A stretch of DNA of 20,429 nt from a virus: positions 1 to 20,429 of IMG/VR virus record IMGVR_UViG_3300029448_000566; one strand, 5' to 3'. Positions 1,805 to 16,617 of this stretch are shown here, piece after piece. A program made the translations under genes and the position numbers. The notes beneath the pieces were generated by a model. The model did no database searches and had not been told where the DNA came from. It saw nothing but the letters and a program-made list of their open reading frames with translations. Positions within the stretch are counted from its first letter, which is position 1, and the number at the start of each line of letters is the position of its first letter.

Positions 1805-1837
1805 CAAAGATAAGGGAACTGATTCGACAATTCCAAA
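1805..1837 (-). promoter_or_regulatory. Leftward promoter 1 (Bacteroidota type)
   Basis: On the minus strand TTTG (1837-1834) is followed after exactly 21 nt by TATCTTTG (1812-1805), matching the Bacteroidota -33 TTTG / -7 TAnnTTTG form. The spacer contains TCGAAT. Two further copies with the same boxes and the same 21-nt spacer occur at 4315-4347 and 5659-5691. Transcription should begin near 1799, giving a leader of about 42 nt before the ATG at 1757. The leader contains CGATCGGCA near its 5' end, as does the leader of promoter 2. Confidence 0.8.
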
Positions 1838-1838
1838 T

Positions 1839-2198: not shown

Positions 2199-2208
2199 TT
2201 TCAATGGT

Positions 2209-2619: not shown

Positions 2620-2644
2620 TTTCAATGAATTAAAATAGGTGATC

Positions 2645-2854: not shown

Positions 2855-2865
2855 AGCGGTTTTGA

Positions 2866-3411
2866 TTAGTAGTCCTCTGGACTAAGTTTGTGGTCTAATG
2901 TGTTCTCGTAGAGAGGGTATAGTACGATTGTACCGGGGTCATTCCATGACAAGTACCATCCGTACTTCGTCAGAAGTTCTTTGAACTTCATCAGCACACC
3001 ACCGTCATACGGTGAGTTACCACAGTTCTTACAATCACCGTACTGGTAGTAATCGAAGATTTTAAGTTTATCCTGTCCGTAGGACAGTTCGACGGTCATA
3101 AAGTATGGATCATCGTCGTACTCAGCCGACATCCAAATTCCATCGGCATGAGTCTTTGTGATATTTGAGGAATTCAGCTCATACCCTTCGAAGTATTCGT
3201 TGGGCTGAACATGAAGTAGCTTCATGTCTTCGATCAGCCATGTCATCATCTGATGACGGTTCTTCATACCGAAGCTGAAGAATTCAGAGAACGACTTTTC
3301 AAGTCGTGCTTTGTTGTCAGGCGAAGCCCTGAGCCATGCTTCGAGCATTGTGGTGTGGAATGAACCGTGGTTCATTTGCAACTGGTTGTGAACCCAATCG
3401 AACTTGTTCAT
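2866..3411 (-). CDS. Hypothetical protein, 181 aa, with CxxC
   Basis: The start ATG (3411-3409) has the recurrent leader CAAAATTCACATC. The N-terminal half is helical (MNKFDWVHNQLQMNHGSFHT...), the middle has ADGIWMSAEYDDDPYFMTVELSYG, and a DCKNCGNSPYDGG segment near residue 130 contains a single CxxC. The C terminus is TIVLYPLYENTLDHKLSPEDY. I recognise no family. This gene holds one of the densest runs of micro-hairpins in the window: 2951-2967, 2973-2989, 3073-3087, 3209-3227, 3242-3257, 3291-3307 and 3359-3376, all perfect. Confidence 0.65.
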   Translation of the reverse strand: MNKFDWVHNQLQMNHGSFHTTMLEAWLRASPDNKARLEKSFSEFFSFGMKNRHQMMTWLIEDMKLLHVQPNEYFEGYELNSSNITKTHADGIWMSAEYDDDPYFMTVELSYGQDKLKIFDYYQYGDCKNCGNSPYDGGVLMKFKELLTKYGWYLSWNDPGTIVLYPLYENTLDHKLSPEDY

Positions 3412-3494
3412 GATGTGAATTTTGAATTACATTCAGCTATCTCGTCAGTACACCTTGCTGAAGGGTGCAGACTCCCCGAAGGGGGAGTTTCGAA

Positions 3495-3854
3495 TTAGTC
3501 CTCAAGGACTGTCAACCATACAGGGTATGGATTGCCGCTGTTAGCGGAGATTTTGTAGACACAGTAGCTGCCTTTCTTGGACTGATAAACAGTCCGACCT
3601 TCGAAGCGGAACTCGGTAGCCTCACCGATCCAAACGGCATAGCCGTTTCCGGTGCGGGGTGACATGCACTTGATGTACTGCGAACCGCTTTTGGTGTTGA
3701 AGATTTCGAAGACTTGTTCGTCGATTGTAATCGACTCGTTCGTATGCACTCCGCTTTCGATGTCGAAGCCACCACTAGAAGTGGTTGTGAAGGTTTGTGC
3801 TTGTGAACTGATGGCGATAGCCATTACGAGGAGGATTGAAAACAGATTTTTCAT
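3495..3854 (-). CDS. Secreted small protein with signal peptide, 119 aa
   Basis: The N terminus MKNLFSILLVMAIAISSQAQ is a classical signal peptide: a Lys, a hydrophobic core of about 12 residues, then SSQA before QTF. A cleavage site after A18 or A19 is likely, and SQA-Q endings are common in flavobacterial secreted proteins. The mature part of about 100 residues is beta-rich, with two Cys (IKCMSPRTG and GSYCVYKIS) that could form a disulphide in the periplasm. It lies directly after the lipoprotein gene 3884-4033 in the same direction. Phage-encoded envelope proteins of this size often block later infections, but nothing in the sequence proves that here. Confidence 0.7.
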   Translation of the reverse strand: MKNLFSILLVMAIAISSQAQTFTTTSSGGFDIESGVHTNESITIDEQVFEIFNTKSGSQYIKCMSPRTGNGYAVWIGEATEFRFEGRTVYQSKKGSYCVYKISANSGNPYPVWLTVLED

Positions 3855-3869
3855 TTATGAAAAGGGTTT

Positions 3870-3886
3870 AGATTAAACTTCGTTTA
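3870..3886 (-). repeat. 17-bp direct repeat, copy 1 (hairpin TAAAC-GAA-GTTTA)
   Basis: The minus-strand sequence TAAACGAAGTTTAATCT occurs here and again, identical, at 4047-4063, so the two copies flank the lipoprotein gene. The first 13 bases form a hairpin with a GAA triloop. In this copy the TAA is the stop codon of the lipoprotein gene. Confidence 0.85.
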
Positions 3887-4033
3887 CCAGTTGCGGATGC
3901 AGTCTGGGGTTTGTCCTTTGGACAGCTTGGTCACCTTGCCATGCTTGATCTGATACGTGGCTTGGGTGTTGTTGCTCATAGAGCAAGAAGCGAGGAGGAG
4001 TGCTGCTGAAGCAGCAAAGAGAAACTTTTTCAT
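3884..4033 (-). CDS. Small lipoprotein, 49 aa
   Basis: A short frame, ATG at 4033-4031 to TAA at 3886-3884, encodes a 49-residue lipoprotein. The N terminus MKKFLFAASAALLLASC is a lipoprotein signal with a lipobox LASC, so C17 would be lipidated, leaving a mature chain of 33 residues. That chain is basic and ends with GQTPDCIRNW, with a second Cys at 45. The leader (CAAAATTCATGTC) resembles the recurrent leftward leader. The gene lies between two identical 17-bp repeats and immediately upstream of a secreted-protein gene. Very small phage lipoproteins such as Llp of T5 block receptors; this is an analogy, not evidence of function. Confidence 0.75.
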   Translation of the reverse strand: MKKFLFAASAALLLASCSMSNNTQATYQIKHGKVTKLSKGQTPDCIRNW

Positions 4034-4046
4034 GACATGAATTTTG

Positions 4047-4063
4047 AGATTAAACTTCGTTTA
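4047..4063 (-). repeat. 17-bp direct repeat, copy 2
   Basis: Identical to 3870-3886. Here it lies in the upstream leader of the lipoprotein gene, 13 nt before its ATG, and can form the same TAAAC-GAA-GTTTA hairpin. Confidence 0.85.
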
Positions 4064-4064
4064 G

Positions 4065-4108
4065 AACTGCACCGGGGAGTCGAACCCCGGTCGAAGACCG
4101 TCACAGTT
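4065..4108 (-). other. tRNA T-arm-like structured element
   Basis: On the minus strand the segment contains GGTTCGACTCC, an exact fit to the tRNA T-arm/B-box consensus GGTTCGANTCC, with a 6-bp stem (CCGGGG/CCCCGG, 4072-4090). A second partly overlapping hairpin CGGTC-GAA-GACCG (4088-4100) and an outer stem AACTG/CAGTT (4065-4069 with 4104-4108) close the element. I could not find D and anticodon arms or a 5' acceptor strand upstream; the gene 4119-4265 occupies that place. It is therefore not a complete tRNA. It could be a tRNA remnant, part of an attachment site, or an unrelated RNA structure. Confidence 0.5.
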
Positions 4109-4118
4109 GCGGCGTGTG

Positions 4119-4265
4119 TCACGCCTCGCCAATCATCTGCTCTACGAGCATCTGATCATCGACAGACAGTTCATCGAACTGCTTAGTGTTGGTAGCGTTC
4201 TCACCAAAGGTGAATACGAGGTCTTGGAGGGCTTGCAGCTTTGCTGCTTTGAGTGCTTGTGTCAT
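4119..4265 (-). CDS. Hypothetical small acidic protein, 48 aa
   Basis: The start is placed at ATG 4265-4263 (MTQALKAAKLQALQDLVFTF) because the recurrent leader CAAAACATCACATC precedes it and promoter 2 sits 50 nt upstream; a longer frame to 4346 would start inside that promoter. The product is a single helical segment followed by an acidic tail (ELSVDDQMLVEQMIGEA). No domain is recognised. Its stop codon lies inside a perfect hairpin GGCGTG-TGT-CACGCC (4111-4125). Confidence 0.6.
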   Translation of the reverse strand: MTQALKAAKLQALQDLVFTFGENATNTKQFDELSVDDQMLVEQMIGEA

Positions 4266-4314
4266 GATGTGATGTTTTGAGTGAGTGCCGTGGCTTAGTG
4301 CCGATCGACGGTTA

Positions 4315-4347
4315 CAAAGATAAGGGATTGCATTCGACAAATCCAAA
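4315..4347 (-). promoter_or_regulatory. Leftward promoter 2 (Bacteroidota type)
   Basis: TTTG (4347-4344) then 21 nt then TATCTTTG (4322-4315) on the minus strand. The element is nearly the same as promoter 1, including GGA after the -33 box, TCGAAT in the spacer and TCCCT before the -7 box. Transcription should start near 4309 and give a leader of about 44 nt that contains CGATCGGCA. It would drive the 4265, 4033, 3854 and following genes. Confidence 0.8.
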
Positions 4348-4466
4348 TCTAATTTCTATAATAACTTTCTACCTTCGGTAAGGGGGCCATTATTGCCCCA
4401 TGTGAGTGCAGGAGTGCGATCGCTCAGGATCAGACGCTTGGACACGGGGGGGGTGAGCAAACGACT

Positions 4467-4553
4467 TTAGTCGTTGTCGATGAGTAGTATGATGATTCCT
4501 GCAATTACAGCGATTGAAAATCGCAGTAAAAGTCCTTGAGTTGCTATGTCCAT
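4467..4553 (-). CDS. Putative single-pass membrane peptide, 28 aa
   Basis: A 28-codon frame starts at ATG 4553-4551 after the leader CTAAACTCATCGAAG, which closely matches the leader of the gene at 5613 (CAAAACACATCGAAG). The product begins MDIATQGLLLRFS and has one uninterrupted hydrophobic stretch (IAVIAGIIILLI) ending in DND. This is the form of a small transmembrane peptide. The shared leader and the position directly after the 4565-4912 gene make it likely to be translated, but a frame of this length can arise by chance. The stop lies beside an AACGACT/AGTCGTT inverted repeat. Confidence 0.45.
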   Translation of the reverse strand: MDIATQGLLLRFSIAVIAGIIILLIDND

Positions 4554-4564
4554 CTTCGATGAGT

Positions 4565-4912
4565 TTAGATTCGTACTTCTTGACCTTTTGCAAGGTCAAA
4601 GTAGGCAATTTCGTTTTCTGCTTCGCAGTATTGGCGGGCTTGCTCGGGGGTGTCAAACACCTTGCTTGCCTCAACCCAAAGGGTTTCACCGTCTAACCAA
4701 CCACCGATAAGTTCGTGGTCACCTTCGAAGAAGGTGTGGATAGCTCTTGCAAGGTCGTTTGGTTCCGTAGCATCAAAGCTTTGCTTGATGAAGGTTTCGG
4801 TTGCTACTACGTAGCCTTCGCTTGGTGCGCTTGCTTGCTTGTCAAGCGTGAAGCCACCGGAGTTTTCTATGCTGAAAAGCATAGCTTTTAGGATCTTGGT
4901 TTTCTGCTCCAT
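4565..4912 (-). CDS. Hypothetical protein, 115 aa
   Basis: ATG at 4912-4910 is preceded by the recurrent leader ending CTCACATC. The protein starts MEQKTKILKAMLFSIENSGG and continues with a mixed alpha/beta pattern and a C-terminal block DTPEQARQYCEAENEIAYFD followed by LAKGQEVRI. It has one Cys and no membrane segment. No family is recognised. Perfect hairpins at 4580-4599, 4720-4736 and 4867-4884 lie inside the coding sequence. It probably belongs to the transcript that starts at promoter 3. Confidence 0.65.
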   Translation of the reverse strand: MEQKTKILKAMLFSIENSGGFTLDKQASAPSEGYVVATETFIKQSFDATEPNDLARAIHTFFEGDHELIGGWLDGETLWVEASKVFDTPEQARQYCEAENEIAYFDLAKGQEVRI

Positions 4913-4950
4913 GATGTGAGGGTTTAGAGGGTTGTAATACTAAGCTTCGC

Positions 4951-5613
4951 TTAGAAGAGGCTGATCTGACCTGAAAGGTCATCCATAGTTACATCTTCTT
5001 CGAAGATCAAGTCTTCAGTCTCGATATCGAAGATATCTTGCAGGGCCAAGTGCTTGGCGTAGCGAGCCGCTTCCACTGGACACTGTCCTTCGGACAGCTC
5101 GAAGGGGACTTCAGAAACCTTCGGTTTGTTCTGCTTTGCAGACTGCTTCGGGGTTTCGATGTAGCTTTCAGCTACATTCGCTTTGGCTTGCTGAACCTCC
5201 AACCGCTGGTTGTGGTTGAGCTTCGCTCTACGATTCACAGTCTTCGACTGTGCTTTCAGATCAGCCTTCGGCTGAATGTCAGCTTTGCTGAACTTGGTGG
5301 CCATAGCCCGAGCCGTCTTCCGCTTCTTGTACTCTCCGAGTACAGTTTCACCTTCGGTGACTTGGTACATTCCAGAGACAGAGTCTCTACGGACTTTGAT
5401 ACCCTCCACAGTCTTCGACTGTGCTTTCGGCTGAGACTTAGTTACAGTCTTCGACTGTCGCTTAGAGGCAGGGACTTCCAAGCTATCAACGTAGTTGATA
5501 AGCTGGTTGATCGCTGCTTTAGCAGCCTTGATGCGCTGCTCCGAAGGAGCGAAAGATGCTGAGTTGACTGAAGCTTTAACCTCCTTCAGGAGGTCGATTC
5601 GTGTGCTTGACAT
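4951..5613 (-). CDS. Basic, low-complexity protein with C-terminal sliding-clamp-binding motif, 220 aa
   Basis: The start ATG (5613-5611) follows CAAAACACATCGAAG, 40 nt or so after the expected start of promoter 3; the longer frame to 5676 would run through the promoter. An N-terminal helix (MSSTRIDLLKEVKASVNSAS) is followed by Lys/Gln/Ser-rich linkers with QSKTV three times, a small domain (IKVRRDSVSGMYQVTEGE) and an acidic C-terminal part. The last residues are GQISLF, a strong fit to the bacterial beta-clamp-binding peptide (QLSLF-type). The protein may therefore dock on the host or phage sliding clamp. Its place as first gene of the leftward set fits an early role. No enzymatic domain is visible. 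Confidence 0.65.
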   Translation of the reverse strand: MSSTRIDLLKEVKASVNSASFAPSEQRIKAAKAAINQLINYVDSLEVPASKRQSKTVTKSQPKAQSKTVEGIKVRRDSVSGMYQVTEGETVLGEYKKRKTARAMATKFSKADIQPKADLKAQSKTVNRRAKLNHNQRLEVQQAKANVAESYIETPKQSAKQNKPKVSEVPFELSEGQCPVEAARYAKHLALQDIFDIETEDLIFEEDVTMDDLSGQISLF

Positions 5614-5658
5614 CTTCGATGTGTTTTGAGGTCGGCGGCTTCGGTGCTGCCGACGCCA

Positions 5659-5691
5659 CAAATCTACGGCGATCAATTCGAGAATTCCAAA
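5659..5691 (-). promoter_or_regulatory. Leftward promoter 3 (Bacteroidota type)
   Basis: TTTG (5691-5688), 21 nt, then TAGATTTG (5666-5659) on the minus strand, with the same GGAATT and TCGAAT segments as promoters 1 and 2. Transcription should start near 5653, and the leader to the ATG at 5613 carries GTCGGCA, again like the other two. This is the most upstream of the three leftward promoters. Confidence 0.8.
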
Positions 5692-6417: not shown

Positions 6418-6432
6418 GTTATATTTGCAGGT

Positions 6433-6828
6433 ATGAAAGCTCTCAAGAAGAAATACGATGAAGGTGGTCGCTTGGAGCGCCAGCTGAAGCGTAAGAAACG
6501 CAAGCTTGCTAAGATCACCCCGCAAGAAGGAAGCGGTCCTGCAAAAAGTGCTGGCACTACAGGCATGATGGGATTTGATATGGGTGGTAGTGGTGGATGC
6601 CCTCCCGGCCAGAAGCGTGGAACGAAGGGTAGCTGTGAGAAAGGAAACCTCAGAGCAGAGAAGTCTGTTGCCGCAAAGGGGTTGAAGAAAGAAAAGACCA
6701 AAGCAAACCTTGCAGGTAAGGGACTGCCTCAGAAACGCAAGAAGCTTACTGCGGAGATCAGTGATCTCGAGAAGAGATTGAGAGCAATGAAGAAACCCGG
6801 TAAGTTCAGCAACCCTAGATTCCTATGA
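6433..6828 (+). CDS. Lys/Gly-rich hypothetical protein, 131 aa
   Basis: The gene starts at ATG 6433 after TATATTTGCAGGT. The protein is strongly basic and of low complexity: a Lys-rich helix (MKALKKKYDEGGRLERQLKR), a Gly/Met-rich stretch with GTTGMMGFDMGGSGG, a CPPGQKRGTKGSC segment with two Cys, and a C-terminal coiled-coil-like helix (KKLTAEISDLEKRLRAMKK). Lys/Gly-rich proteins near phage structural genes can be DNA-binding or internal virion components; that is inference. It overlaps the next gene by 4 nt (ATGA), which indicates coupled translation. Confidence 0.7.
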   Translation: MKALKKKYDEGGRLERQLKRKKRKLAKITPQEGSGPAKSAGTTGMMGFDMGGSGGCPPGQKRGTKGSCEKGNLRAEKSVAAKGLKKEKTKANLAGKGLPQKRKKLTAEISDLEKRLRAMKKPGKFSNPRFL

Positions 6829-7100
6829 GAGCACTGACTGGAAACGATAGAATCAAACGCATCACTAAGAAGCGGTTCCGCAAGATGACACCCGAAGAGC
6901 TTGAAGAGGCTCAGGCTGCTGGTGAAATCCCCAAGGGGAGGCAGGATGAGTTCTATGAAGCGATGATCGCAGACGCTCAAGAGAAGGGTGATGCTGTGAG
7001 AGAGAAGAAGTTCCAGAACCTTTACGATGAACTGCTTAAAGAGGAGTACGCAAAGAAAAGAAAGAGAACAAGAAAAAGAATCCGAGCACCTAAATTATAA
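6825..7100 (+). CDS. Hypothetical charged protein, 91 aa
   Basis: The start overlaps the upstream stop in ATGA. The protein is nearly all helix and very rich in Lys, Arg and Glu, with a basic N terminus (RIKRITKKRFRKMTPEE), an acidic middle (EFYEAMIADAQEKGDAV) and a highly basic C terminus (KKRKRTRKRIRAPKL). It shares this basic character with the preceding gene, and the two may act together, for example on nucleic acid in the virion. No family is recognised. The stop TAA overlaps the next ATG by one base. Confidence 0.65.
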   Translation: MRALTGNDRIKRITKKRFRKMTPEELEEAQAAGEIPKGRQDEFYEAMIADAQEKGDAVREKKFQNLYDELLKEEYAKKRKRTRKRIRAPKL

Positions 7101-7564
7101 TGGCTGATCTTACAGTAACAACAACAGATACAGTAACTATCACTGGTAGGCAGTATGGTAACACCCATGAGGCTACCATTACTGGTATCAATCAAGTGGC
7201 TCAAGGTAAGGTGAATGTAAAGTCGTCAGGCTTTTTGCAGTTGATGGGTTTTGATAGCGCTGATCAGAAGGGGTTATTCCAGTTCTTGGATAACACCATG
7301 AAGTATTTCAGACTGACTAACCTAGATGCTAACAACAGTGTTGTGTTGAGTATCAGCACTACTGATGGTGTCACCTCCCCGCTTGATGTCATCAATATTG
7401 AGGTCCCAGCAGGATGCTCATACGTATTCCACGGTGACGGCGCTGTAGGGGACGGGCTGAACGTAGCTGGGAGCTTCACTACATCCCCTTTCAGGCTGTA
7501 CAGATCGTCTGTACGAGCGTTGTCATCAAACGTAGATGTAGAAATCTTTATTGCAACAACCTGA
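7100..7564 (+). CDS. Putative minor structural protein, tandem paralogue A, 154 aa
   Basis: The protein is beta-rich and rich in Thr, Val and Ser, with VTITGRQYGN near the N terminus, KYFRLTNLDANNSVVLSIST in the middle and VDVEIFIATT at the end. The following gene has the same three blocks in the same places (VTLNGKLYGN, KYIRITNLDASETLFLNVYL, IQVEIFVGEIA), so the two are paralogues from a tandem duplication. The size and the beta-sandwich appearance suit a virion decoration or head-tail protein, but I recognise no named family. Starts and stops overlap by one base on both sides. Confidence 0.65.
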   Translation: MADLTVTTTDTVTITGRQYGNTHEATITGINQVAQGKVNVKSSGFLQLMGFDSADQKGLFQFLDNTMKYFRLTNLDANNSVVLSISTTDGVTSPLDVINIEVPAGCSYVFHGDGAVGDGLNVAGSFTTSPFRLYRSSVRALSSNVDVEIFIATT

Positions 7565-8013
7565 TGGGTACACTTACTACAAAGATCAAAGAAGAAGTAA
7601 CCCTAAACGGGAAGCTTTACGGTAATGAGATCACAAAGACTCATGCCGATATCACCAGAGTCAAGCAGACTACAGTGCAAGTCAGAGCATCAGGTAATGA
7701 CGACCTGTTTGATTTCGCAAATGCTACTTATAGTATTGGTACTGTAGCATTCAATAAAGCAAAATACATCCGCATCACAAACCTTGATGCTTCAGAGACG
7801 CTGTTCTTGAACGTATATCTTGATCCCGCAACTGCGGCAGATCAGTATATACTGTTTCAGGTACCACCGAAGCGATCGTGGATTCTGAATGAAGACAGTA
7901 TGGATGGGACTGGTTCTGCAACAACCACTCTCGAGCAGATTGACGCTATCAAAGCTCAGTGCAGTGGGGCGGGTAGCATTCAAGTAGAAATTTTCGTAGG
8001 AGAAATAGCATAA
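7564..8013 (+). CDS. Putative minor structural protein, tandem paralogue B, 149 aa
   Basis: This is the second copy of the duplicated beta-rich protein. It has VTLNGKLYGN, a central KYIRITNLDASETLFLNVYL and the ending VEIFVGEIA. Overall identity with copy A is low outside the three blocks, so the duplication is old. The ATG overlaps the previous TGA (TGATG). A pair of related beta proteins may form a hetero-oligomer on the virion, or each may serve a different surface; the sequence does not decide. Confidence 0.65.
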   Translation: MGTLTTKIKEEVTLNGKLYGNEITKTHADITRVKQTTVQVRASGNDDLFDFANATYSIGTVAFNKAKYIRITNLDASETLFLNVYLDPATAADQYILFQVPPKRSWILNEDSMDGTGSATTTLEQIDAIKAQCSGAGSIQVEIFVGEIA

Positions 8014-8015
8014 CT

Positions 8016-8540
8016 ATGATGAACTCAGGAAGCATGGCCGAAAAGATTATGGTCATGATGGAACAAAAAGAAAAAGCTGGAAAGGATAGCTTCACTATCT
8101 CCGGCGACAAAGCTTCACCTGTAATGATGGAGGAGGATAGAGAGTACGTAATGTACGAGTCCCCCAACGGTGAGCAGATCAAGATCTACGGTAACTGGAA
8201 TGAGTATGCCGACAGACGTGACGAGCAAGGTCGTGACATGATCAAGATTGAAGAGACCTACCCCATCACCAAGAATGCTGAAGGAGAATTCATCTTCGAC
8301 GAGGCTACCTTCGAGAACATGATGATGGAGCGCAGCCAAGAGCGCCAAGAGATGGAAGAAGAGGAGATGCCAGAACAGGAGGGAGGCATGATGAGGATGA
8401 AGATGGGTGGTAAATTGCCCGAGTACCGATATGGCGGTGCCATCGACAAGTATGCTGTAGGGGGTAAGTTCCCTGATCTGACCGGAGACGGTAAGGTTAC
8501 TATGGCTGATATCCTGAAGGGTAGAGGCGCAATCAAGTAA
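8016..8540 (+). CDS. Acidic protein with C-terminal dockerin/EF-hand-like motif, 174 aa
   Basis: The N-terminal two thirds are acidic and Met-rich (MMMERSQERQEMEEEEMPEQ). The C terminus has Gly-rich repeats (KMGGKLPEYRYGGAIDKY) and then DLTGDGKVTMADILKGRG, which fits a calcium-binding dockerin-type EF loop (D-x-x-x-D-G-x-x-x-x-x-D). I recall this GGKFPDLTGDGKVTxADILKGRG ending from other marine phages, where it is attached to otherwise unrelated proteins. It may bind calcium and hold a virion or assembly complex together. It begins two bases after the paralogue pair. Confidence 0.65.
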   Translation: MMNSGSMAEKIMVMMEQKEKAGKDSFTISGDKASPVMMEEDREYVMYESPNGEQIKIYGNWNEYADRRDEQGRDMIKIEETYPITKNAEGEFIFDEATFENMMMERSQERQEMEEEEMPEQEGGMMRMKMGGKLPEYRYGGAIDKYAVGGKFPDLTGDGKVTMADILKGRGAIK

Positions 8541-8541
8541 T

Positions 8542-9333
8542 ATGCACTCTGTTTGCTTTATGATGCTCTATCACAAGCGCAAGTCTGTGACTAGAATGTC
8601 AATGTACCACCTACGTAAAGTAGTAGACTTCTTCGAGAGCCAAGGTGTAGAAACCGAGGCTCTTGTTTTTGGTGACGAACCAGACCAGAAGGAGTTTGCA
8701 GAAGCATTGGGACTGACTCATATCGACGTTCCTAACTGGGATCCAGTAGTAAACTCAATAGCACCCAAGTTCAACAAAGCTTTCAGTACAGCCGTGAACT
8801 CTGGTAAGGAGTACATCTGCTGGCTTGGTAGTAATAACGTCCATGACATAGAGTACTTCCGTAAGTGCATTGATGCTATGGATGAAGACCATGTATACTT
8901 TGGTTCGAAATACTTTCACATCGCATCTGTAGATCATGAGAAAACTGCAAGCTTTACAGCAAGGAGATATCACTTGTGCTCTTCTGGTCAGTTTTACAAA
9001 GCAGACAAGTTGAAAGCTAGGGTTAGCTTTGGCAATCACATGTCATCAAACTTCGATGGGGCGATAAACAGAACGCTCACAGAATACTATGGTCGAAAGT
9101 GCTGGGCAGCTATTAACGGAGGCGCTAATGAGGGGATGAATTGTATAGATCTAAAGGCTGGTGGTGATATCCACGGCTTTGACCGATACAAGACCCCACA
9201 TCCAAGGCTGACTAGAAAGGACGTTGAGGATTACTTCGAGGAAGTTAGGATGTTTATGAACGGAGACTTCAATGAAGAGAATTATAGAACCGCTGTACTA
9301 GCAACCTACCTTTCTGAGAAAGAGCGTACCTGA
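8542..9333 (+). CDS. Glycosyltransferase-like protein (GT-A type), 263 aa
   Basis: The layout is that of a GT-A glycosyltransferase: a first strand and helix (VCFMMLYHKRKSVTRMSMYH), a second strand (VETEALVFGDEPDQ), then the block FNKAFSTAVNSGKEYICWLG followed by SNN, which resembles the nucleotide-sugar/metal site region of family 2-like enzymes. A classical DxD is not present; SNN stands in its place. Such enzymes could modify phage DNA bases, virion proteins or host surface sugars. Its 3' end overlaps the convergent regulator gene by 65 bp. The functional call is by fold pattern only. Confidence 0.55.
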   Translation: MHSVCFMMLYHKRKSVTRMSMYHLRKVVDFFESQGVETEALVFGDEPDQKEFAEALGLTHIDVPNWDPVVNSIAPKFNKAFSTAVNSGKEYICWLGSNNVHDIEYFRKCIDAMDEDHVYFGSKYFHIASVDHEKTASFTARRYHLCSSGQFYKADKLKARVSFGNHMSSNFDGAINRTLTEYYGRKCWAAINGGANEGMNCIDLKAGGDIHGFDRYKTPHPRLTRKDVEDYFEEVRMFMNGDFNEENYRTAVLATYLSEKERT

Positions 9334-9688
9334 CTCTGTAATTGAACTTCGTCTCCTCACGGAACATATGATCATCCATTTCTCTTGATGGGGTAAGCTT
9401 ATCGAAGTGCTTATACATATACCCCATGTTCACTAGCGGGTACACCCACCGCTCACCAATGTGACGCTTGCTCACGCCGTAATCTTCAGAAGCATAGTTC
9501 AGGGTAAAGAACTCCAAATCATAAGCCCACAACATAAACTCCAGAAACTTCTGGCTGATATCGTTTGCCTCGCAGCACTCGATCCGTCTTTGACGTAACC
9601 GCTTGAGGTAGTTGAAGTTAACGTATCTCTCATGCAGTAGAGAGAAATCCCTGAAGAGCCGCTTCTTTGCTACTCTAGACCTTGGCAT
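9269..9688 (-). CDS. Winged-helix DNA-binding regulator (MarR-like fold), 139 aa
   Basis: This is the only minus-strand gene within the rightward operon. The N terminus is very basic (MPRSRVAKKRLFRDF). Residues 48-95 read FLEFMLWAYDLEFFT, then YGVSKRHIGERWVYPLVNMG, then a wing, and YALSQKGRLLVQRFY at about 121-135. This order of helix, helix-turn-helix with VSKRHIG, wing and a final L-x-x-KG helix is typical of MarR/PadR-like winged-helix proteins. It starts 39 nt from the divergent gene at 9727, and the space between holds two facing TAnnTTTG boxes, so the protein probably controls its own and the rightward promoter. Confidence 0.65.
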   Translation of the reverse strand: MPRSRVAKKRLFRDFSLLHERYVNFNYLKRLRQRRIECCEANDISQKFLEFMLWAYDLEFFTLNYASEDYGVSKRHIGERWVYPLVNMGYMYKHFDKLTPSREMDDHMFREETKFNYRVRYALSQKGRLLVQRFYNSLH

Positions 9689-9698
9689 AATTTAATTC

Positions 9699-9720
9699 GT
9701 ATCTTTGAGATACAAATTTA
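9699..9720. promoter_or_regulatory. Facing -7 boxes with operator-like palindrome
   Basis: TATCTTTG at 9700-9707 faces right toward the gene at 9727, and TAAATTTG on the minus strand (9720-9713) faces left toward the gene at 9688. A perfect inverted repeat GTATCT-TTG-AGATAC (9699-9713) overlaps both boxes. Clear -33 TTG boxes at the usual distance are not seen on either side, so activity may be weak or activator-dependent. Binding of the winged-helix product here would be a simple autoregulatory circuit. Confidence 0.5.
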
Positions 9721-9726
9721 GCGAGA

Positions 9727-10041
9727 ATGAACGAGCACGAGGTTGAATTTATGGCAAAGGTGTACCTGCTGATCCAGCAGATCGAAGCACTGACAAGAGA
9801 ATACGGGTTTGAGAATCGTGTGATGAGCGCTATGGTGTTTGGTTTGATTGAAGCAGAGATGGAGGATGCCATCGAAGAAGGTCGTATGGTAGAACTCCAG
9901 TCGGTATTCAGCTTTAACCTCGAGGATCGTGAGGAGCTTGAGACAGTCAAGAAACTCATGGATGCCACATACGAGGAGCCAAAGGATAAGGGTCGAGGGT
10001 TCTCTGATCTATTCGGAGGCATCGACGTGAACTTGAATTAA
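9727..10041 (+). CDS. Hypothetical acidic helical protein, 104 aa
   Basis: The protein is nearly all helix and acidic (FMAKVYLLIQQIEALTREYG, EAEMEDAIEEGRMVELQS) and ends with DLFGGIDVNLN. It lies immediately right of the divergent promoter pair and begins the second part of the rightward gene chain. No family is recognised. Size and charge would suit a scaffold-type or accessory protein, but there is no direct support. Confidence 0.6.
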   Translation: MNEHEVEFMAKVYLLIQQIEALTREYGFENRVMSAMVFGLIEAEMEDAIEEGRMVELQSVFSFNLEDREELETVKKLMDATYEEPKDKGRGFSDLFGGIDVNLN

Positions 10042-10042
10042 A

Positions 10043-10279
10043 ATGGAAGGACTGATTCGGAAGATCGTTATTGGGAAAGATCCCAAGAACGGCATGGCAT
10101 ACTTTGTTGGTATGAACGCAGGTGGTGGCAAGGTCTCCGCTATCGTTCAAGACGAAGCATACTTGTTTAAATTTAACAAGACTCGCTACCTTGTATATAT
10201 CGAGGATAGTGAAGGGACTCAGTTATGGAAGGCTATTGATGAGATGCCTTGTATACTTGAGTTCGATTTGAACTTTTAA
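10043..10279 (+). CDS. Hypothetical protein, 78 aa
   Basis: A short gene that starts two bases after the previous stop and ends three bases before the next start. The N terminus MEGLIRKIVIGKDPKNGMAY and the Gly-rich turn (GMNAGGGKVSAIV) are followed by alternating strands with several aromatic residues (YLFKFNKTRYLVYI). It appears to be a compact beta protein. No family is recognised. Tight packing in the operon supports that it is a true gene. Confidence 0.6.
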   Translation: MEGLIRKIVIGKDPKNGMAYFVGMNAGGGKVSAIVQDEAYLFKFNKTRYLVYIEDSEGTQLWKAIDEMPCILEFDLNF

Positions 10280-10282
10280 TTT

Positions 10283-10867
10283 ATGAAGACACTGGACTTG
10301 TTTATCGTCGAGATTGAATCTCAGACGAAAGACACTATTGTGACCGATGGTGGCCTAGAGCTATACATCGACACCAAGTTTAATGAGTTTGAACACCGCA
10401 CTACAGACGGCCCTATCGTTGCTGCGCCTAGTAAGTATAAGACTGGTGCAAGTGTTGGTGATACTCTTTATTTCCATCATCTTGTGGTCCTCAATGAGGG
10501 TCAAACTCTCACGGGACTGGACAAGAATTACACGGTTAGATATGACCCTAAAGAAACCATCAATAATCAAGCGATTGCTTACAAGGATCAAAAGACTGGG
10601 AGAATCCATCCGCTCGCTGGTTGGGTACTACTGGAACATGTTGACGAAGAGGAAGAAGTCCTCTCAGAAGTAATCGAGGTAGTAAAGCTCAAAGAGAAAC
10701 CCGTAATCAAAGGTAGAGTCGGTTTCGACGCACCGTGGGTTGAAGAGCTAGGCTTGAAGAAGGGTGATGTGGTTGGTTTCAAGAAAGGGATTAACTACAA
10801 GATCGACATTGACGGAGTGAACTACTACCGCCTCCGGGCTGAGGACTTGCTCTATGTCGAAGCGTAA
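10283..10867 (+). CDS. Co-chaperonin GroES-like protein, 194 aa
   Basis: The C-terminal half reads like a GroES core: GWVLLEHV, a mobile acidic stretch, IKGRVGFDAPWVEELG, LKKGDVVGFKKGINYKIDID and a final strand YYRLRAEDLLYVEA (compare GroES V-x-x-GD-x-V...G...L...S-x-x-DILAI). The N-terminal half has the related pattern FIVEIESQTKDTIVTDGGLE...GPIVAAPSKYK...VGDTLYFHHLVVLN. The protein is about twice the length of bacterial GroES and may hold two such units. Phage co-chaperonins such as Gp31 of T4 help host GroEL to fold the capsid protein; the same role is likely here. Confidence 0.65.
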   Translation: MKTLDLFIVEIESQTKDTIVTDGGLELYIDTKFNEFEHRTTDGPIVAAPSKYKTGASVGDTLYFHHLVVLNEGQTLTGLDKNYTVRYDPKETINNQAIAYKDQKTGRIHPLAGWVLLEHVDEEEEVLSEVIEVVKLKEKPVIKGRVGFDAPWVEELGLKKGDVVGFKKGINYKIDIDGVNYYRLRAEDLLYVEA

Positions 10868-11144
10868 GTTCACCACCGTAGAGGCGGCAAGGAGACTCAT
10901 GTCCAGCATGGAGGTCGCTATCGACAATATGATCGCCGAAGTAAAAAAGCCTGTCGATCCAGAAGCAGGTGGCTCTGCACGTAAAGCGGAGCTTCAATCA
11001 ATTAAACAAACCGCCATCGACTGTAAAGAGCTGCTGATCGAAAGACAGAAGCTGGAGCAGATGGTGAAAGAACTACAAGAGAATGGAAGCATCGAAGAAG
11101 ACCGAGACTTCTCTGGAGGAATTGCAGAACGATTTAGTAAGTGA
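10854..11144 (+). CDS. Helical protein, possible small terminase subunit, 96 aa
   Basis: The gene begins 14 nt before the end of the GroES-like gene. The protein is helical, with a basic start (MSKRKFTTVEAARRLMSS) and a central coiled-coil-like part (LQSIKQTAIDCKELLIERQK) ending in a Lys/Glu-rich helix. It lies two genes before the large terminase, where small terminase subunits are usual, and length and helix content are compatible. No helix-turn-helix is clear, so this remains a positional guess. Confidence 0.5.
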   Translation: MSKRKFTTVEAARRLMSSMEVAIDNMIAEVKKPVDPEAGGSARKAELQSIKQTAIDCKELLIERQKLEQMVKELQENGSIEEDRDFSGGIAERFSK

Positions 11145-11316
11145 CTTCACTCACGACGACTACTGGTACTTCGAAGACAGCTGGAATGCATCTCACGGAG
11201 ACCCATTTAAAGATGGGTATACTCAAGGCCAGAAGGATCTGGCAAAGCTGATCATGGAGACCTTCAAAGAGTATGAAATTCCCTTGATGTTGTGGGAGGC
11301 TCTTAAAGAATACTGA
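11083..11316 (+). CDS. Hypothetical acidic protein, 77 aa
   Basis: The ATG at 11083 gives a 62-nt overlap with the preceding gene in another frame; a TTG at 11122 is a later possible start with a shorter overlap. The product is acidic and aromatic (SDFTHDDYWYFEDSWNASHG), followed by a helix (YTQGQKDLAKLIMETFKEYE). It ends one base before the glycosyltransferase gene at 11318. No family is recognised. The tight arrangement supports translation from one of the two starts. Confidence 0.5.
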   Translation: MEASKKTETSLEELQNDLVSDFTHDDYWYFEDSWNASHGDPFKDGYTQGQKDLAKLIMETFKEYEIPLMLWEALKEY

Positions 11317-11317
11317 T

Positions 11318-12028
11318 ATGATAACTGTTGCACTACCGACTTGGAATAGCAGCCCTATACTTTGGTTGCAGCTAGAAAGCCTTTGCAGGCAAGTAGATGC
11401 GCCTAAGTTTGAGGTTATCGTCATGGAAGACCCGTCAGAAAATTTTGCTGGTGAGAAATACGTGATGCAGTTTGCAGACAGGATGAAAGAGGTAGGGGGA
11501 GATCTTAGATATGTTGAGCTTGATAAATGGATACCTCTGGGATCAAAATGGAGAGAGATAGCTCTTATTGCTAAGTACGATATATTTTGTTTAGCCGCCA
11601 GCGACAATTACTCCCCACCAGACAGACTAAAAGTTACATCTGAGTACTTTGAAAAAGGGTGTAACTGGTTTGATGTTAGGCAAGGTCTTTTCTACAACAT
11701 AAAGACGGGTGCATCTAGTTGCTGGCACAATAACAATCTAGAAGACACTGGGCTCTTTATGGCTACTAACACGGACTTCATAAAAAAACTAGACGGTCCC
11801 GGCCCAAGCAAATGTATTGACAATTGGATTAGATCTCAAATAAAAGGCAGAGTTAAGTCCTCTGAGTTGAGAATGAACGGGCTGCATACGGACGGGTATA
11901 ACAATATCTCAATAAGAAGGGGTAAGTATAAAGAAGCGTACCCCAAAAGGTTTACAAATCCGTACATGCCAGTTGAAGAAATAGTGCCTAAGGATATTTG
12001 GGATAGACTAATATCAATGAAATGCTGA
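11318..12028 (+). CDS. Family 2-like glycosyltransferase, 236 aa
   Basis: The N terminus ITVALPTWNSSPILWLQLES followed by LCRQ is a standard GT-A start (strand, T-x-N loop, long helix). Next come FEVIVMEDPS, the position of the first nucleotide-binding acidic pair, and LIAKYDIFCLAASDNYSPPD, where SDN sits at the DxD site. The remaining part has LEDTGLFMATNTDFIKKL, typical of the acceptor side. The base composition is visibly more A+T-rich than in the genes on both sides, a sign of separate acquisition. It overlaps the terminase start by 7 nt. The target (DNA, capsid or host glycan) is unknown. Confidence 0.65.
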   Translation: MITVALPTWNSSPILWLQLESLCRQVDAPKFEVIVMEDPSENFAGEKYVMQFADRMKEVGGDLRYVELDKWIPLGSKWREIALIAKYDIFCLAASDNYSPPDRLKVTSEYFEKGCNWFDVRQGLFYNIKTGASSCWHNNNLEDTGLFMATNTDFIKKLDGPGPSKCIDNWIRSQIKGRVKSSELRMNGLHTDGYNNISIRRGKYKEAYPKRFTNPYMPVEEIVPKDIWDRLISMKC

Positions 12029-14142
12029 TCGAAGTAGAAGGCTATGAAGATAAAGCTGTTGTGGTGGACCCTCGAGGGACACACGGTGAAGTCATCGACA
12101 TCGACGGGCTACTTGTTGCGCTCCCGAAGAAACCACCCAAGAAAGAAATCCTATTCGCTGAAGAGCCTCGGAAGATGCAGATGTGGCGAAGGCTTGACGT
12201 GCCGCAAGAGCTGTCGTCAATACGAAGTATGGATGAGTGGTATGAGAAACCTGCTGAGTTCAGGAAAAAATTTCTTCCATATATCGAAAGGGAATTTGAC
12301 CGCCGCCGTAACGGTGTTTGGTTTTACAATAATGGGGAGCCTACGTACATTACAGGTAGGCACTACATGCTACTCCAATGGACGAAGCTTGATATTGGAC
12401 ACCCATACTACTTCGCTTTCCAGAGGAGGATTTATCTCCATATGGCTGCTTGCGAAGCTGACCCTCGTTGCATCGGCCAGCTTTATACTAAGTGTCGCCG
12501 TTCTGGTTACACTAATATCTGTTCTGCGGTTCTTGTGGATGAGGCTACACAAGTTAAAGACAAGCTGCTGGGCATTCAGTCAAAGACTGGTAAGGATGCT
12601 CAGGAGAACATCTTCATGAAGAAGACGGTGTCGATGTTTAAGTCGTACCCATTCTTCTTCAAGCCTATTCAAGACGGTACCACCAACCCACGCATGGAGC
12701 TGGCGTTCCGAGAGCCGTCGAAACGAATCACAAAGAACAACAAGACATCCACTAAGGGTGATGCGCTGAATACAGTCATCAACTGGAAGAACACCACTAA
12801 CAACGCATACGATGGTGAGAAGCTGCACATGCTGTACCTCGATGAGGCTGGTAAGTGGGAGAAGCCAGCGGATATACGTGAGGCGTGGCGTATTGAGCGT
12901 ACCTGTCTGATCGTGGGTAGAAAGATTGTGGGGAAGGCTCTGGTCGGATCTACAGTAAACCCAATGGACAAAGGTGGTGAGGAGTTCCGTGAGCTATGGG
13001 ATGACTCCGATCCTACAGAGCGTAACGCCAACGGTAGGACTAAGAGCGGACTGTACGGGCTATTCATTCCGGCCTATGACGCACTCGAAGGATTCTTTGA
13101 CCAGTACGGCAACTGCGTAACCGAAGACCCGGAAGAACCTGTAATGGGTATAGACGGGGAGATGATCGAAATTGGGTCAAAGACATACCTGAAGAATGAG
13201 CGGGATGCAATGAAGAACAATCCCAAGGAAATGAATGAGCTCGTGAGGCAGTTCCCTTGGAGCATCGATGAGGCGTTCCGTGACAGTATCGAGGGGAGCG
13301 TGTTCAATGTGGGTAGGATCTACCAGCAGATTGACCACAACAACAACCTGTTTCCAAACCCAGTGGTGAAGGGTAACTTCATGTGGAAGGAGAAAGACAA
13401 AGAGGTTGTGTTTACACCAGACCCGAACGGAAGGTTCCGTGTATCGTGGCAACCCGACCCAGAGCACAGGAATAAGTTTGGGACTGAGCGTAATGGGCGT
13501 AAGTCTCCAGCTAATGCCCACGTTGGTGTAGGAGGGGTGGATAGCTATGATCTGGACCAGACTTTGGATGGAAGAGGATCGAAAGGCGCAATGCACTTGT
13601 ATAACAAGTTCAATATGCAAGCCCCTTCAAATATGTTTATTCTGGAGTATGCATCCCGCCCAGACCTCGCAGCAATATTCTACGAGGACTGCCTCATGGC
13701 TGCATTCTATTACGGATATCCGCTGTTGATCGAGAACAACAAGTACGGGATAGCTAGGTACTTCGAGAAGCGTGGGTACGATAACTATTTGCTAGACCGT
13801 CCTTCACACCTTTCGAGCGCAAGTGCTAAAGTAAAAGTTAGAACAAAGGGTGTCCCATCTAACTCAGCAGATATGATCCAATCTCATGCTCAAGCTATTG
13901 AGGCTTATATACATAGCCATGTTGGTATCAGAGCAGAGACCGACGAGATGGGGGCTATGTATTTCAATAGAACGCTTGAAGACTGGATTGCATATAAGAT
14001 CGACAAGAGGACAAAGTATGACCTTACAATCTCATCAGGACTTGCCCTACTTGCTGCTCAAAAGGTTAAACAAGAGAAAGTAAAAAGCAACTTCAATGAG
14101 AAGCAGTTCTTCCGTAGGTACAAGCCAAAATCCTTCCACTGA
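12022..14142 (+). CDS. terL: Terminase large subunit, 706 aa
   Basis: This is the ATP-driven DNA packaging motor and nuclease. Residues near 156-163 read KCRRSGYT, a deviant Walker A of the R-x-G-x-S/T kind seen in phage terminases. LYLDEAG near 270-276 is Walker B, with the catalytic Glu directly after the Asp. GSTVNPMDKGG near 309 is the coupling motif. The C-terminal RNase H-like nuclease has VDSYDLDQT near 506, LLIENNKYG near 567 and a later SNSADMIQSHAQAI block with the third acidic residue. The phrase TKSGLYGLFIPAYDALEGFF recalls crAss-like terminases, a relation I cannot test here. Confidence 0.9.
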   Translation: MLIEVEGYEDKAVVVDPRGTHGEVIDIDGLLVALPKKPPKKEILFAEEPRKMQMWRRLDVPQELSSIRSMDEWYEKPAEFRKKFLPYIEREFDRRRNGVWFYNNGEPTYITGRHYMLLQWTKLDIGHPYYFAFQRRIYLHMAACEADPRCIGQLYTKCRRSGYTNICSAVLVDEATQVKDKLLGIQSKTGKDAQENIFMKKTVSMFKSYPFFFKPIQDGTTNPRMELAFREPSKRITKNNKTSTKGDALNTVINWKNTTNNAYDGEKLHMLYLDEAGKWEKPADIREAWRIERTCLIVGRKIVGKALVGSTVNPMDKGGEEFRELWDDSDPTERNANGRTKSGLYGLFIPAYDALEGFFDQYGNCVTEDPEEPVMGIDGEMIEIGSKTYLKNERDAMKNNPKEMNELVRQFPWSIDEAFRDSIEGSVFNVGRIYQQIDHNNNLFPNPVVKGNFMWKEKDKEVVFTPDPNGRFRVSWQPDPEHRNKFGTERNGRKSPANAHVGVGGVDSYDLDQTLDGRGSKGAMHLYNKFNMQAPSNMFILEYASRPDLAAIFYEDCLMAAFYYGYPLLIENNKYGIARYFEKRGYDNYLLDRPSHLSSASAKVKVRTKGVPSNSADMIQSHAQAIEAYIHSHVGIRAETDEMGAMYFNRTLEDWIAYKIDKRTKYDLTISSGLALLAAQKVKQEKVKSNFNEKQFFRRYKPKSFH

Positions 14143-14151
14143 TAGATTTAG

Positions 14152-14159
14152 TATATTTG
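14152..14159 (+). promoter_or_regulatory. TAnnTTTG box directly before the portal start
   Basis: TATATTTG (14152-14159) lies 7 nt before the portal ATG (14167), in the only clear gap between late genes. The same TATATTTGC with a following AGGT or GAGGTA is found at 6420-6427 before the gene at 6433. Starts from these boxes would produce almost leaderless messages. A -33 TTG is absent at both, so they may be inactive. Confidence 0.35.
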
Positions 14160-14166
14160 CGAGGTA

Positions 14167-16617
14167 ATGTACAGCCAGAACAATAAGAATAAATCCGGCT
14201 TTCCAGATCCTCTAGAGTCGAGGCTAATTAAGGAAGGCAAGGAATACGGGCTGAGATTTGCTAAGGCTATCCTCGCTCAGTGGGGTAGCATGGGTGAAGA
14301 TCAGTCATTGATCAGAAAGAGATCACGTATATTCCACAAGAATCGGAGATACGCTAACGGTACTCAGGATACATCTATCTACAGGCAGATCCTGACATCA
14401 CTTGACCCATCAAACAGTGACGGTAGTTTGCTGAACTTGGACTTCAGTCCAGTACCTATCCTACCTAAGTTTGTTAGGATTGTAGTCAACAAGATTCTAT
14501 CAAAAGATCCATACCCCAACCTCGAAGCAGTTGATCCTTTGTCTTCTTCTGAGAAAGACAAGCAGCGCAGAAAGGTTGAGATGATGATTCGCCATAAGGA
14601 GCAGCTTCAGGCTCTCCAGAAGCAAACAGGCGTTCAGGCTGAGAATGTAGATGCAGTTCCTGAAACCCTCGAGGAGGCTGAGATCTTTATGGATAACAAC
14701 ATAAAGTCTTCGTCAGAGATCGCTGCACAGATTGCGACTAATCTTACTCTCGAATGGAATGACTTTAGTGACAAGATATATCGTCGCTGCGTAGAGGACT
14801 TGGTTACTCTTGGCATGGCTGTAGTCAAGAGAAGCAACGATCCTAACTACGGTATTGCAGAAGAGTACGTAGACCCAGAGACCTTTGTACATAGTTACAC
14901 TGAGGATGCCGGGATGAATGACCTCATCTACGCAGGTCACTTGAAGTCAATGCCTATCCACGAGCTCAAGCGTATTGCAGGGGATCAACTCACCGAGGAG
15001 GACTTTGCTGCCATCGCAAGAAAGGCTCAGAAGAAATATGGGTATGACAGCTCAAAGCTGCACCAGACTAGCTACGATAATTATCTGAAGCGTCAGAAGT
15101 TTGGGTATGACGAGTACATGGTTGAGGTTCTTGACTTCGAGTTCAAGTCCGTTGACTGCATGTACTATGAGTCAAAAGAAAATAAGTACGGTAATGTTGG
15201 GTTCTTCTTCAAAGGTGAGAACTACAAGGAGCCAACTAACTCACTGTACAAAAGGGAAGTAACTAAGCTGGAGAACGAAACTATCTACGGCGGTTGCTAC
15301 GTTGTCGGTTGTGACATGCTGTTTAACTACGGTATCAAAACCAACACCCCTAAGAATATTCACGATATCTCAAGAGCAGAACTTTCTTACTCTTGTGCTG
15401 CCACCAACATGCGGGACATGATCCCCAAGTCTATGGTGGATGGTTGTGTTGGCTTTGCCGATCAGATCAACATCACACACCTCAAGATTCAGCAAGCAGT
15501 TGCTAAAGCTAAGCCTGACGGTATCATCATTGATATCGAGGCTCTTGAGAATGTACAGCTCGGGAAAGGTGGTGAGCTTCAGCCGCTTGAACTTCACGAC
15601 ATCTATGAACAGACGGGCGTATTCTATTACCGATCTAAAAACCCTGAGGGCGGTTTTCAAAACCCGCCAATCAGAGAGATCGGCAACTCCATTCGTAATA
15701 TTAACGAGCTTGTTGGTATTTATAACCACTACCTGAGAATGATCCGTGACACCACGGGTATCAATGAGGTAATGGATGGGAGTACACCCAAAGGAGATGC
15801 TCTTGTTGGTGTACGTCAGCAAGCTATCGCTGCGGGTAACAACGCAATCTACGACATCACCAATGCCTCAATGCTTCTGTTTAAGAAGGTGTGTAGAGAC
15901 ATTGTTAAGTGTGTTCAGATCGTACCTAAAGAATCTCTGCTGTTTGGCATTTACGCCAATGCGATTGGTAAAGAGAATATGGATCTGCTTTCTACGTTCG
16001 AGAATCTGGTAATGTACAACTTCGGTGTCACTGTCCAGAAAGAAATGGAGGAAGTAGAGAAGCAGTACTTAGAGCAGAACATTCAAATCTCGCTCTCACA
16101 AAAAGAGCTTGATATTGAGGATGCTATTGCAATCCGTCAGCTAAAAGACATCAATCAGGCAGAGCGACTGCTTGTGGTGAGACGTAAAAAGAGAATGGCT
16201 GCAAATCAGCAGATGGCTCAGCAGAATTCTCAGATGCAAGCACAAGTTCAAGCCCAAGCAGCACAGGCTGCTTCTCAGGGTAGAATGCAAGAGATGCAGA
16301 TGGAGGCTCAGATCGAGTCTCAAATGCTTCAGATGAAAACTCAGATGGAGGCCCAGATGGAGCAGATCAAGCATGAGCACAGAAAAGAGATTGAGCTTAT
16401 CAGAGCTCAGGCTACTCTTGGATTCAAGACTGATGAGCAAGAGTTCAAAGAGAAGCTCGAAGTACTCAAGGAGGATCGTAAAGACGAGCGTGTTGAGAAG
16501 CAAGCCGTTGAGCAGTCTAAACTGATCTCCCAAAGAAAAGGAGATCGAGGAGAACTCAAGAAAGGTGAGAAGTCATCTGATACATCAGACATCATTGACC
16601 AACTAATTAACCAGTAA
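14167..16617 (+). CDS. Probable portal protein, 816 aa
   Basis: The gene follows the large terminase directly, where portals are found, and its length (816 aa) fits the large portals of marine and crAss-like phages. The N-terminal part is mixed alpha/beta (for example VRIVVNKILSKDPYPNLEAV, typical of portal N-terminal lobes), and the middle has DVTG-like DTTGINEVMDGSTPKGDALVG, a block that recalls the conserved TGIN/GxxP segment after the portal stem region. The last 150 residues are a long Gln/Met/Glu-rich coiled coil (QMAQQNSQMQAQVQAQAAQA), a portal barrel-like extension. It forms the DNA entry ring and meets the terminase there. Confidence 0.75.
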   Translation: MYSQNNKNKSGFPDPLESRLIKEGKEYGLRFAKAILAQWGSMGEDQSLIRKRSRIFHKNRRYANGTQDTSIYRQILTSLDPSNSDGSLLNLDFSPVPILPKFVRIVVNKILSKDPYPNLEAVDPLSSSEKDKQRRKVEMMIRHKEQLQALQKQTGVQAENVDAVPETLEEAEIFMDNNIKSSSEIAAQIATNLTLEWNDFSDKIYRRCVEDLVTLGMAVVKRSNDPNYGIAEEYVDPETFVHSYTEDAGMNDLIYAGHLKSMPIHELKRIAGDQLTEEDFAAIARKAQKKYGYDSSKLHQTSYDNYLKRQKFGYDEYMVEVLDFEFKSVDCMYYESKENKYGNVGFFFKGENYKEPTNSLYKREVTKLENETIYGGCYVVGCDMLFNYGIKTNTPKNIHDISRAELSYSCAATNMRDMIPKSMVDGCVGFADQINITHLKIQQAVAKAKPDGIIIDIEALENVQLGKGGELQPLELHDIYEQTGVFYYRSKNPEGGFQNPPIREIGNSIRNINELVGIYNHYLRMIRDTTGINEVMDGSTPKGDALVGVRQQAIAAGNNAIYDITNASMLLFKKVCRDIVKCVQIVPKESLLFGIYANAIGKENMDLLSTFENLVMYNFGVTVQKEMEEVEKQYLEQNIQISLSQKELDIEDAIAIRQLKDINQAERLLVVRRKKRMAANQQMAQQNSQMQAQVQAQAAQAASQGRMQEMQMEAQIESQMLQMKTQMEAQMEQIKHEHRKEIELIRAQATLGFKTDEQEFKEKLEVLKEDRKDERVEKQAVEQSKLISQRKGDRGELKKGEKSSDTSDIIDQLINQ

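Follow-up and report, generated by a model that had tools for sequence, protein, structure and literature searches.

The DNA analyzed here, the virus record IMG/VR IMGVR_UViG_3300029448_000566, is 20,429 bases long, and we refer to this whole stretch as the window. Its minus-strand genes lie at 259–5676 and its plus-strand genes, which include those for the terminase and the portal, at 6433–20126; we infer that the minus block is the early side of the record and the plus block the late side. The large terminase (TerL; 12022–14142, plus strand, phrog_6681) shares 46% identity with that of MW202828 and 40% with those of Flavobacterium elemo phages, which makes a flavobacterial host likely. The portal gene lies at 14167–16617 (plus strand, phrog_6547), and a 516-aa protein with a collagen-like Gly-X-Y repeat near its start, perhaps a fibre, is encoded at 16967–18517.

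Among the plus-strand (late) genes, one gene runs counter to its neighbors, a minus-strand ORF at 9269–9688 that begins with ATG, encodes 139 aa, and is supported by homologues and by a structural model. The initial annotation had placed a winged-helix regulator facing the operon at 9269–9727. The gene is real, it lies on the minus strand, and its plus-strand flanking genes do include those for the terminase and portal, but its true end is at 9688, position 9727 being the start codon of the next gene. An AlphaFold2 model built with 100 homologues (mean pLDDT 84.2) agrees with the proposed winged helix and is MarR-like, aligning with the MepR–DNA complex with a Z of 12.5 and an rmsd of 3.4 over 98 residues. 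Of 1000 chains aligned to the model, 483 had a Z of 8 or more, and the best 50 of the 1000, judged by title, presumably belong nearly all to the MarR family. An earlier model from 30 homologues pointed in the same fold direction, and a Foldseek search of the PDB with that first model gave no match at E < 0.001. The wing (residues ≈95–119) is long, conserved, and poorly modeled, with pLDDT below 50 at residues 97–101 and 106–116. As judged by the predicted model, the protein thus has a MarR fold.

Sequence searches of the same protein returned little. A Pfam scan of 30 family members listed nine families at E up to 1, none of them MarR, a result that for so distant a sequence leaves the fold family possible. 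The window protein itself had nothing above the cut-off in Pfam or PHROGs (no PHROG at E up to 0.1), and the best hit of its profile among sequences of solved structures was an unrelated protein at E 0.13. In a viral structure library the best match was an unnamed 91-aa protein that is 69% identical; databases therefore do contain some trace of the family.

Divergent from this gene, on the plus strand, begins the packaging operon. Its first gene encodes a 104-aa protein (9727–10041), followed by g10043, a conserved 78-aa protein (10043–10279), a GroES-like protein of 194 aa (10283–10867; phrog_13932), and a conserved 96-aa protein (10854–11144) that is a small-terminase candidate by position only. 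The 104-aa protein has an acidic tail that ends approximately in ...DLLxGLGISLN in most aligned relatives; the name "IHF-like" was dropped for this gene, its Pfam E value of 0.014 being below the cut-off. In elemo, Panino, phi46:3, and phi38:1, too, an annotated GroES gene immediately precedes TerL or lies close to it. The Pfam and PHROGs scans recognized no small terminase among the window proteins scanned. This, together with the nearby terminase gene, would fit a reading in which the counter-running gene encodes a packaging or virion DNA-binding protein, such as a small-terminase-like binder of the pac site, rather than a transcription regulator. We regard that reading as very improbable, given the MarR fold, the opposite strand, and a promoter box of its own; moreover, the position of the 96-aa gene at 10854 would suit a small terminase better, and in MW202828 and phi46:3 annotated genes of comparable size lie before TerL.

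To place the gene among relatives, we searched several collections. A tblastn search of 50,697 phage records gave no match at E 0.01, and species genomes gave a single, partial match, located on a contig of a Bacteroidetes MAG. In IMG/VR, a single-sequence search returned 53 loci and a profile-based tblastn search at least 552 relatives among 599 candidate stretches, of which 80 were kept. The profile recovered a complete gene in 120 of 122 loci, and merging loci more than 80% identical over 160 nt reduced these 120 to 58 distinct ones. Four more profiles added 289 loci, of which 243 merged, one was too short, and 45 were new and distinct. Two loci lacking an ATG start were left out, and L247, read in the wrong frame, was excluded before the 102-locus counts. 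The layout is strongly kept: in 99 of the 102 distinct loci (window included), the regulator gene diverges from the 104-aa gene, g10043, and the GroES-like gene, the remaining three lacking one or two of these. TerL was seen where the fetched DNA extends that far. All six records of 57–65 kb hold one regulator match each. In the 65-kb record G004, mechanically called ORFs at 363–37,009, including terminase and portal, are mostly on the minus strand and those at 37,027–56,087 mostly on the plus strand, and the regulator gene lies at 32,020–32,445, plus strand, adjoining the packaging genes.

More distant homologues emerged from a profile search of six stretches from cultured or named phages. 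The top matches, in phi46:3 (E 2.5e-4) and Panino (4.6e-4), are both counter-running; next came phi38:1 gp078 (E 0.025), on the same strand as TerL, and the counter-running "repressor protein" of MW202828 (0.23), and an elemo gene on the same strand as TerL is connected to the family through Panino. Aligned together, these five genes (phi46:3, Panino, phi38:1, MW202828, and elemo) matched the regulator profile at E 3.1e-8 with probability 95. That the elemo and phi38:1 homologues run with TerL counts against the reading proposed below.

At its 3′ end, the regulator gene overlaps an opposite-strand neighbor by 65 bp (9269–9333), as had been noted. This convergent neighbor (8542–9333, plus strand) had been called a glycosyltransferase; a glycosyltransferase-like Pfam match exists, but it is weak (E 0.1, below the cut-off). 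The gene occupies a variable slot: as judged by ORF sequences, the occupant beside the regulator 3′ end differs between loci, next to the fixed packaging block, and the regulator does sit, as proposed, at the border between a variable (accessory) block and a conserved packaging block. Of the first 58 distinct loci, 48 have flanks long enough to show the 3′ neighbor, and in 34 of these a convergent ORF overlaps the regulator 3′ end. The overlap is 65 bp in 7 of the 48, all with the neighbor family of the window, and 86, 16, 4, or other lengths elsewhere. The suggestion of antisense interference at this end fares poorly, since the 65-bp overlap is confined to those 7 loci and the others have different lengths or none.

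We then turned to the 5′ side. F. johnsoniae promoters, as described in PMC6847099, carry a −7 element, TAHHTTTG, often 4–5 nt before the start, and a weak −33 element. At the zone shared by the two divergent genes, putative −7 elements of this Bacteroidetes sigma-ABfr type are found in both directions: TATCTTTG at 9700–9707 on the plus strand for the packaging operon, with a start expected at 9712–9713, and TAAATTTG at 9713–9720 on the minus strand for the regulator, with a start expected at 9707–9708. The promoter boxes had been described as overlapping. The −7 boxes themselves are separate, with 5 bp between them, but the promoter footprints must overlap; with starts at these positions, the two transcripts would diverge with no stretch in common, and the polymerase footprints would overlap. 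In the window, TANNTTTG occurs 20 times, compared with 10.8 ± 3.1 in shuffles, and a sigma-70 scan gave 13 sites against 11.1 expected, near chance. By inspection, neither box of the shared zone has a −33 TTTG 17–23 nt upstream. Two minus-strand TATCTTTG boxes, in the stretches 1805–1841 and 4315–4351, are each preceded by another TTTG, whose end is 21 nt upstream, and resemble full −33/−7 Bacteroidetes promoters; the packaging box, unlike these, lacks a second TTTG at the 21-nt spacing. Plus-strand TATATTTG boxes at 6420–6427 and 14152–14159, which precede the start codon at 6433 by 5 nt and that of the portal gene at 14167 by 7 nt, are possible further plus-side promoters.

A perfect palindrome, GTATCT-TTG-AGATAC, occurs once in the record, at 9699–9713. 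It had been said to cover both boxes; it covers the packaging box, but only one base of the regulator box. An imperfect 25-bp version (9694–9718, 10 of 11 pairs), a candidate operator lying over both expected starts, covers six of the eight bases of the regulator box. In a region of 48 bp, a perfect stem of 6 bp is unremarkable (p 0.17). The 25-bp version is rare locally, being reached by 1 of 400 shuffles of 9660–9747, but the whole window contains three repeats of this type, with 0–5 in eight shuffles. In 32 loci whose packaging box lies, as in the window, in the gap between the two genes (gap-type), a mean of 5.50 of 11 arm pairs matched, compared with 5.00 ± 0.20 for permuted arms (13 of 2000 permutations; the rows are related). 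Exact stems reached p 0.05 in 3 of 28 loci and in 0 of 28 for each of three control regions; this test permitted no mismatch and is therefore blind to the 25-bp version.

The perfect 15-mer is shared by the window and L007, and L023, L397, and L094 have similar repeats, most others differing. We rejected the palindrome as a group-wide conserved operator, its sequence being kept in few loci. In MW202828, a 9-bp inverted repeat extends across the two −7 boxes (p 0.01); in Panino, the two boxes themselves form an inverted repeat of 8 bp (p 0.04), between CDS0103 and CDS0104, with the homologue second on the minus side; the −7 boxes of phi46:3 showed no unusual inverted repeat (p 0.90). Some lineages thus share the presence of a putative dyad at the promoter node but not its sequence, and one arm of the dyad is also simply the host −7 box. 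Overall, a role as operator is plausible but weakly supported.

In the relatives, the packaging-directed box is found in one of two places. Strict matches among the 102 loci lie in the gap in 32, within regulator codons 20–22 in 49 (embedded-type), in both in none, and in neither in 21; about half of the compared relatives seem to carry the packaging promoter inside the regulator gene. A strict regulator-direction box is present in 42 of the 102 loci and absent from 60. The background of strict boxes is 0.90% of 20,065 sequence windows for the packaging direction and 0.42% for the regulator direction. For the −33 element, the spacing in gap-type loci is not consistent, and in 11 of 30 embedded-type loci a TTG lies 18 nt away, a count confounded by coding. 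The first 58 distinct loci divided into 20 gap, 30 embedded, 0 both, and 8 neither, and the 45 held-out distinct loci alone into 12, 17, 0, and 16. Two of these last 16 have an embedded box one codon off, owing to a different start, and one is L247; all three were corrected in the 102-locus count.

The embedded box reads CAAAnnTA on the regulator strand, mostly as CAAAGGTA or CAAAGATA, and its codons 20–22 encode Gln-Arg-Tyr. Codon usage is biased at these positions. The Gln20 codon is CAA in all 49 embedded genes, compared with 94 of 182 for other Gln residues there, and because this test takes every Gln20 locus, it is independent of how the groups were drawn. Arg21 is AGR in 45 of 45 (406 of 571 elsewhere in embedded-type genes). 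A gap box occurs in none of the 49 Gln20 loci and in 32 of the 53 remaining ones. For codons 20–25, synonymous conservation z values are 13.4, 7.6, 5.0, 15.8, 27.5, and 3.5 in embedded-type genes and 0.2, 4.4, −0.9, 4.5, −0.7, and 0.2 in gap-type genes. Codons 4 (18.4), 44 (12.7), 38 (10.5), and 51 (10.1) also score highly in embedded-type genes; the run at codons 20–25 stands out but not alone, and related rows inflate all z values.

The gap/embedded split follows the tree, with two changes among the 81 box-containing loci of the 102-locus tree and three independent pairs (one opposite, two without difference). Mutual exclusion of the two box positions is not claimed as a statistical result, because two changes and three independent pairs are too few evolutionary switches to support it. 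Adding "neither" as a third state gives 10 changes on the 102-locus tree, and the 58-locus tree gave three changes in two counts, the second with six loci containing one-mismatch boxes assigned by hand. In the group with Gln18-Asp19, 11 of 12 loci lack a strict packaging box, making up 11 of the 21 "neither" loci (L287, L290, L306, L309, L316, L320, L337, L340, L343, L029, and L036). Co-variation of both boxes in this group (TATCTTG for TATCTTTG) was considered and dropped, the variant occurring on the regulator strand in 4 of 12 loci and, elsewhere in these loci, about as often as the reversed control (13 against 14 occurrences).

Box positions predict a 5′ antisense overlap of the mRNAs in embedded-type relatives and none in the window, where the starts would be at 9712 (plus) and 9708 (minus). 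In embedded-type loci, the packaging mRNA is predicted to cross the regulator start codon in antisense; in the 20 of the 49 that have a regulator box as well, the overlap would be ≈70 nt. Antisense control appears better supported at the regulator 5′ end, in embedded-promoter relatives, than at the 3′ end; the window is not of the embedded type.

From the modeled fold, the layout, the boxes, the codon bias, and the conservation, all sequence-based, we infer promoter activity, timing, dimerization, DNA binding, the sign of control, and the antisense effect as follows. With a slightly better than even chance of being right, we propose that the gene encodes a phage MarR-fold regulator sharing one promoter zone with the packaging operon, where a dyad-bound dimer limits its own synthesis and delays packaging, with an antisense shut-off in the embedded relatives. 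Host RNA polymerase would start in either direction but never in both at once, because the polymerase footprints overlap. A regulator dimer on the dyad, lying over both start sites, would limit its own synthesis, and the bound regulator would hold back the packaging promoter until late infection. In many relatives, the packaging promoter would lie ≈57 nt inside the regulator gene, its mRNA antisense to the regulator start codon, and firing of the packaging operon would therefore also shut the regulator off. The shared zone or embedded promoter in this way suggests an either/or switch. A tentative extension, less likely than not, is that in a large clade the packaging toggle is written into coding sequence: the embedded promoter would have locked in one amino acid along with several codons, the packaging mRNA would act as an antisense brake on its regulator, and occlusion and antisense would form one two-way switch, of which the clade of the window has the gap version.

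That the protein represses rather than activates is a guess that leans modestly toward repression. If it instead worked like phi29 p4, which we take to be the counterpart of an activator switch, with the same anatomy of back-to-back promoters and a DNA-binding protein, it would repress its own promoter at the node and recruit RNA polymerase to the packaging promoter. The missing TTTG at the packaging box, set against the two minus-strand TATCTTTG boxes that have one 21 nt upstream, would fit this reading, and a cyanophage MarR protein described in PMC9692554 is an activator touching RNA polymerase alpha. In Flavobacterium promoters generally, however, the −33 element is weak according to PMC6847099. 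The dyad, moreover, lies on the −7 box and the start sites, where binding more likely blocks. We consider activation a serious rival, albeit an unlikely one.

The repressor reading also has to be weighed against a protein that mainly targets host promoters or host RNA polymerase, its location being historical and the boxes two ordinary promoters. Host-targeting phage MarR and winged-helix proteins exist (as described in PMC9692554 and PMC5569994), and by inspection the near-invariant residues are more frequent at both ends and in the wing than in the recognition helix. Such a role would leave unexplained why the layout is kept in 99 of 102 loci and why 81 of 102 have a packaging-directed box at the regulator gene, at one or the other of two positions, and we judge it quite improbable.

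Hundreds of IMG/VR contigs carry this gene (at least 552 relatives), without a tblastn match at E 0.01 in the 50,697 phage records, and the node, whose layout is shared by 99 of 102 distinct loci, is a concrete target for the study of packaging timing. Should the embedded box prove to be a functional promoter, the amino acids and codons would suffice to locate it, and a single locus would combine occlusion by the protein with antisense RNA. Laboratory tests are possible because cultured phages of Cellulophaga, Maribacter, and Flavobacterium carry distant homologues.

Many genes of the MarR family control themselves through a dyad located at a divergent promoter, and the window protein has the same predicted fold as MepR, TcaR, and MarR. 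Its family differs in giving no MarR sequence match (30 members) and in its long, conserved, poorly modeled wing. The phrog_17028 proteins phi46:3 gp076, Panino CDS0105, and the MW202828 "repressor protein" are distant homologues by profile, and all three run against TerL. The window protein differs in having no direct PHROG match, the single-profile E values are weak (2.5e-4, 4.6e-4, and 0.23), and the elemo and phi38:1 relatives run with TerL; the relation suggested to phrog_17028 is one of profile comparison.

Noncontiguous operons have already been reported in S. aureus phages (PMC7154746). Like the noncontiguous operon or excludon as described there, our locus has an opposite-strand gene inside an operon, and its embedded-type relatives are predicted to make overlapping transcripts that would exclude each other; here, however, the opposite gene is a candidate regulator, and these relatives carry a promoter box in its codons. 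The gene order fits such an operon, and no plus-strand terminator-like site is listed at 8542–9727. A reverse-strand bS21 gene among Bacteroidetes phage late genes (PMC9723584) is likewise a counter-running gene beside TerL and capsid genes, but it encodes a ribosomal protein, and the word "promoter" is absent from the main text of that paper. Plasmid pLS20, as described in PMC4207663, shares the use of overlapping divergent promoters as a switch and differs in concerning plasmid conjugation, DNA looping, and a Gram-positive host. The main text of PMC8776804 mentions none of regulator, repressor, helix, or promoter. Among the papers listed by searches of the open-licence PMC literature, as covered by titles and the beginnings of abstracts, none described the arrangement. 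The arrangement adds to known kinds, the divergent regulator and the noncontiguous operon or excludon, and what is new is a packaging box that lies either in the gap or inside the codons of the regulator.
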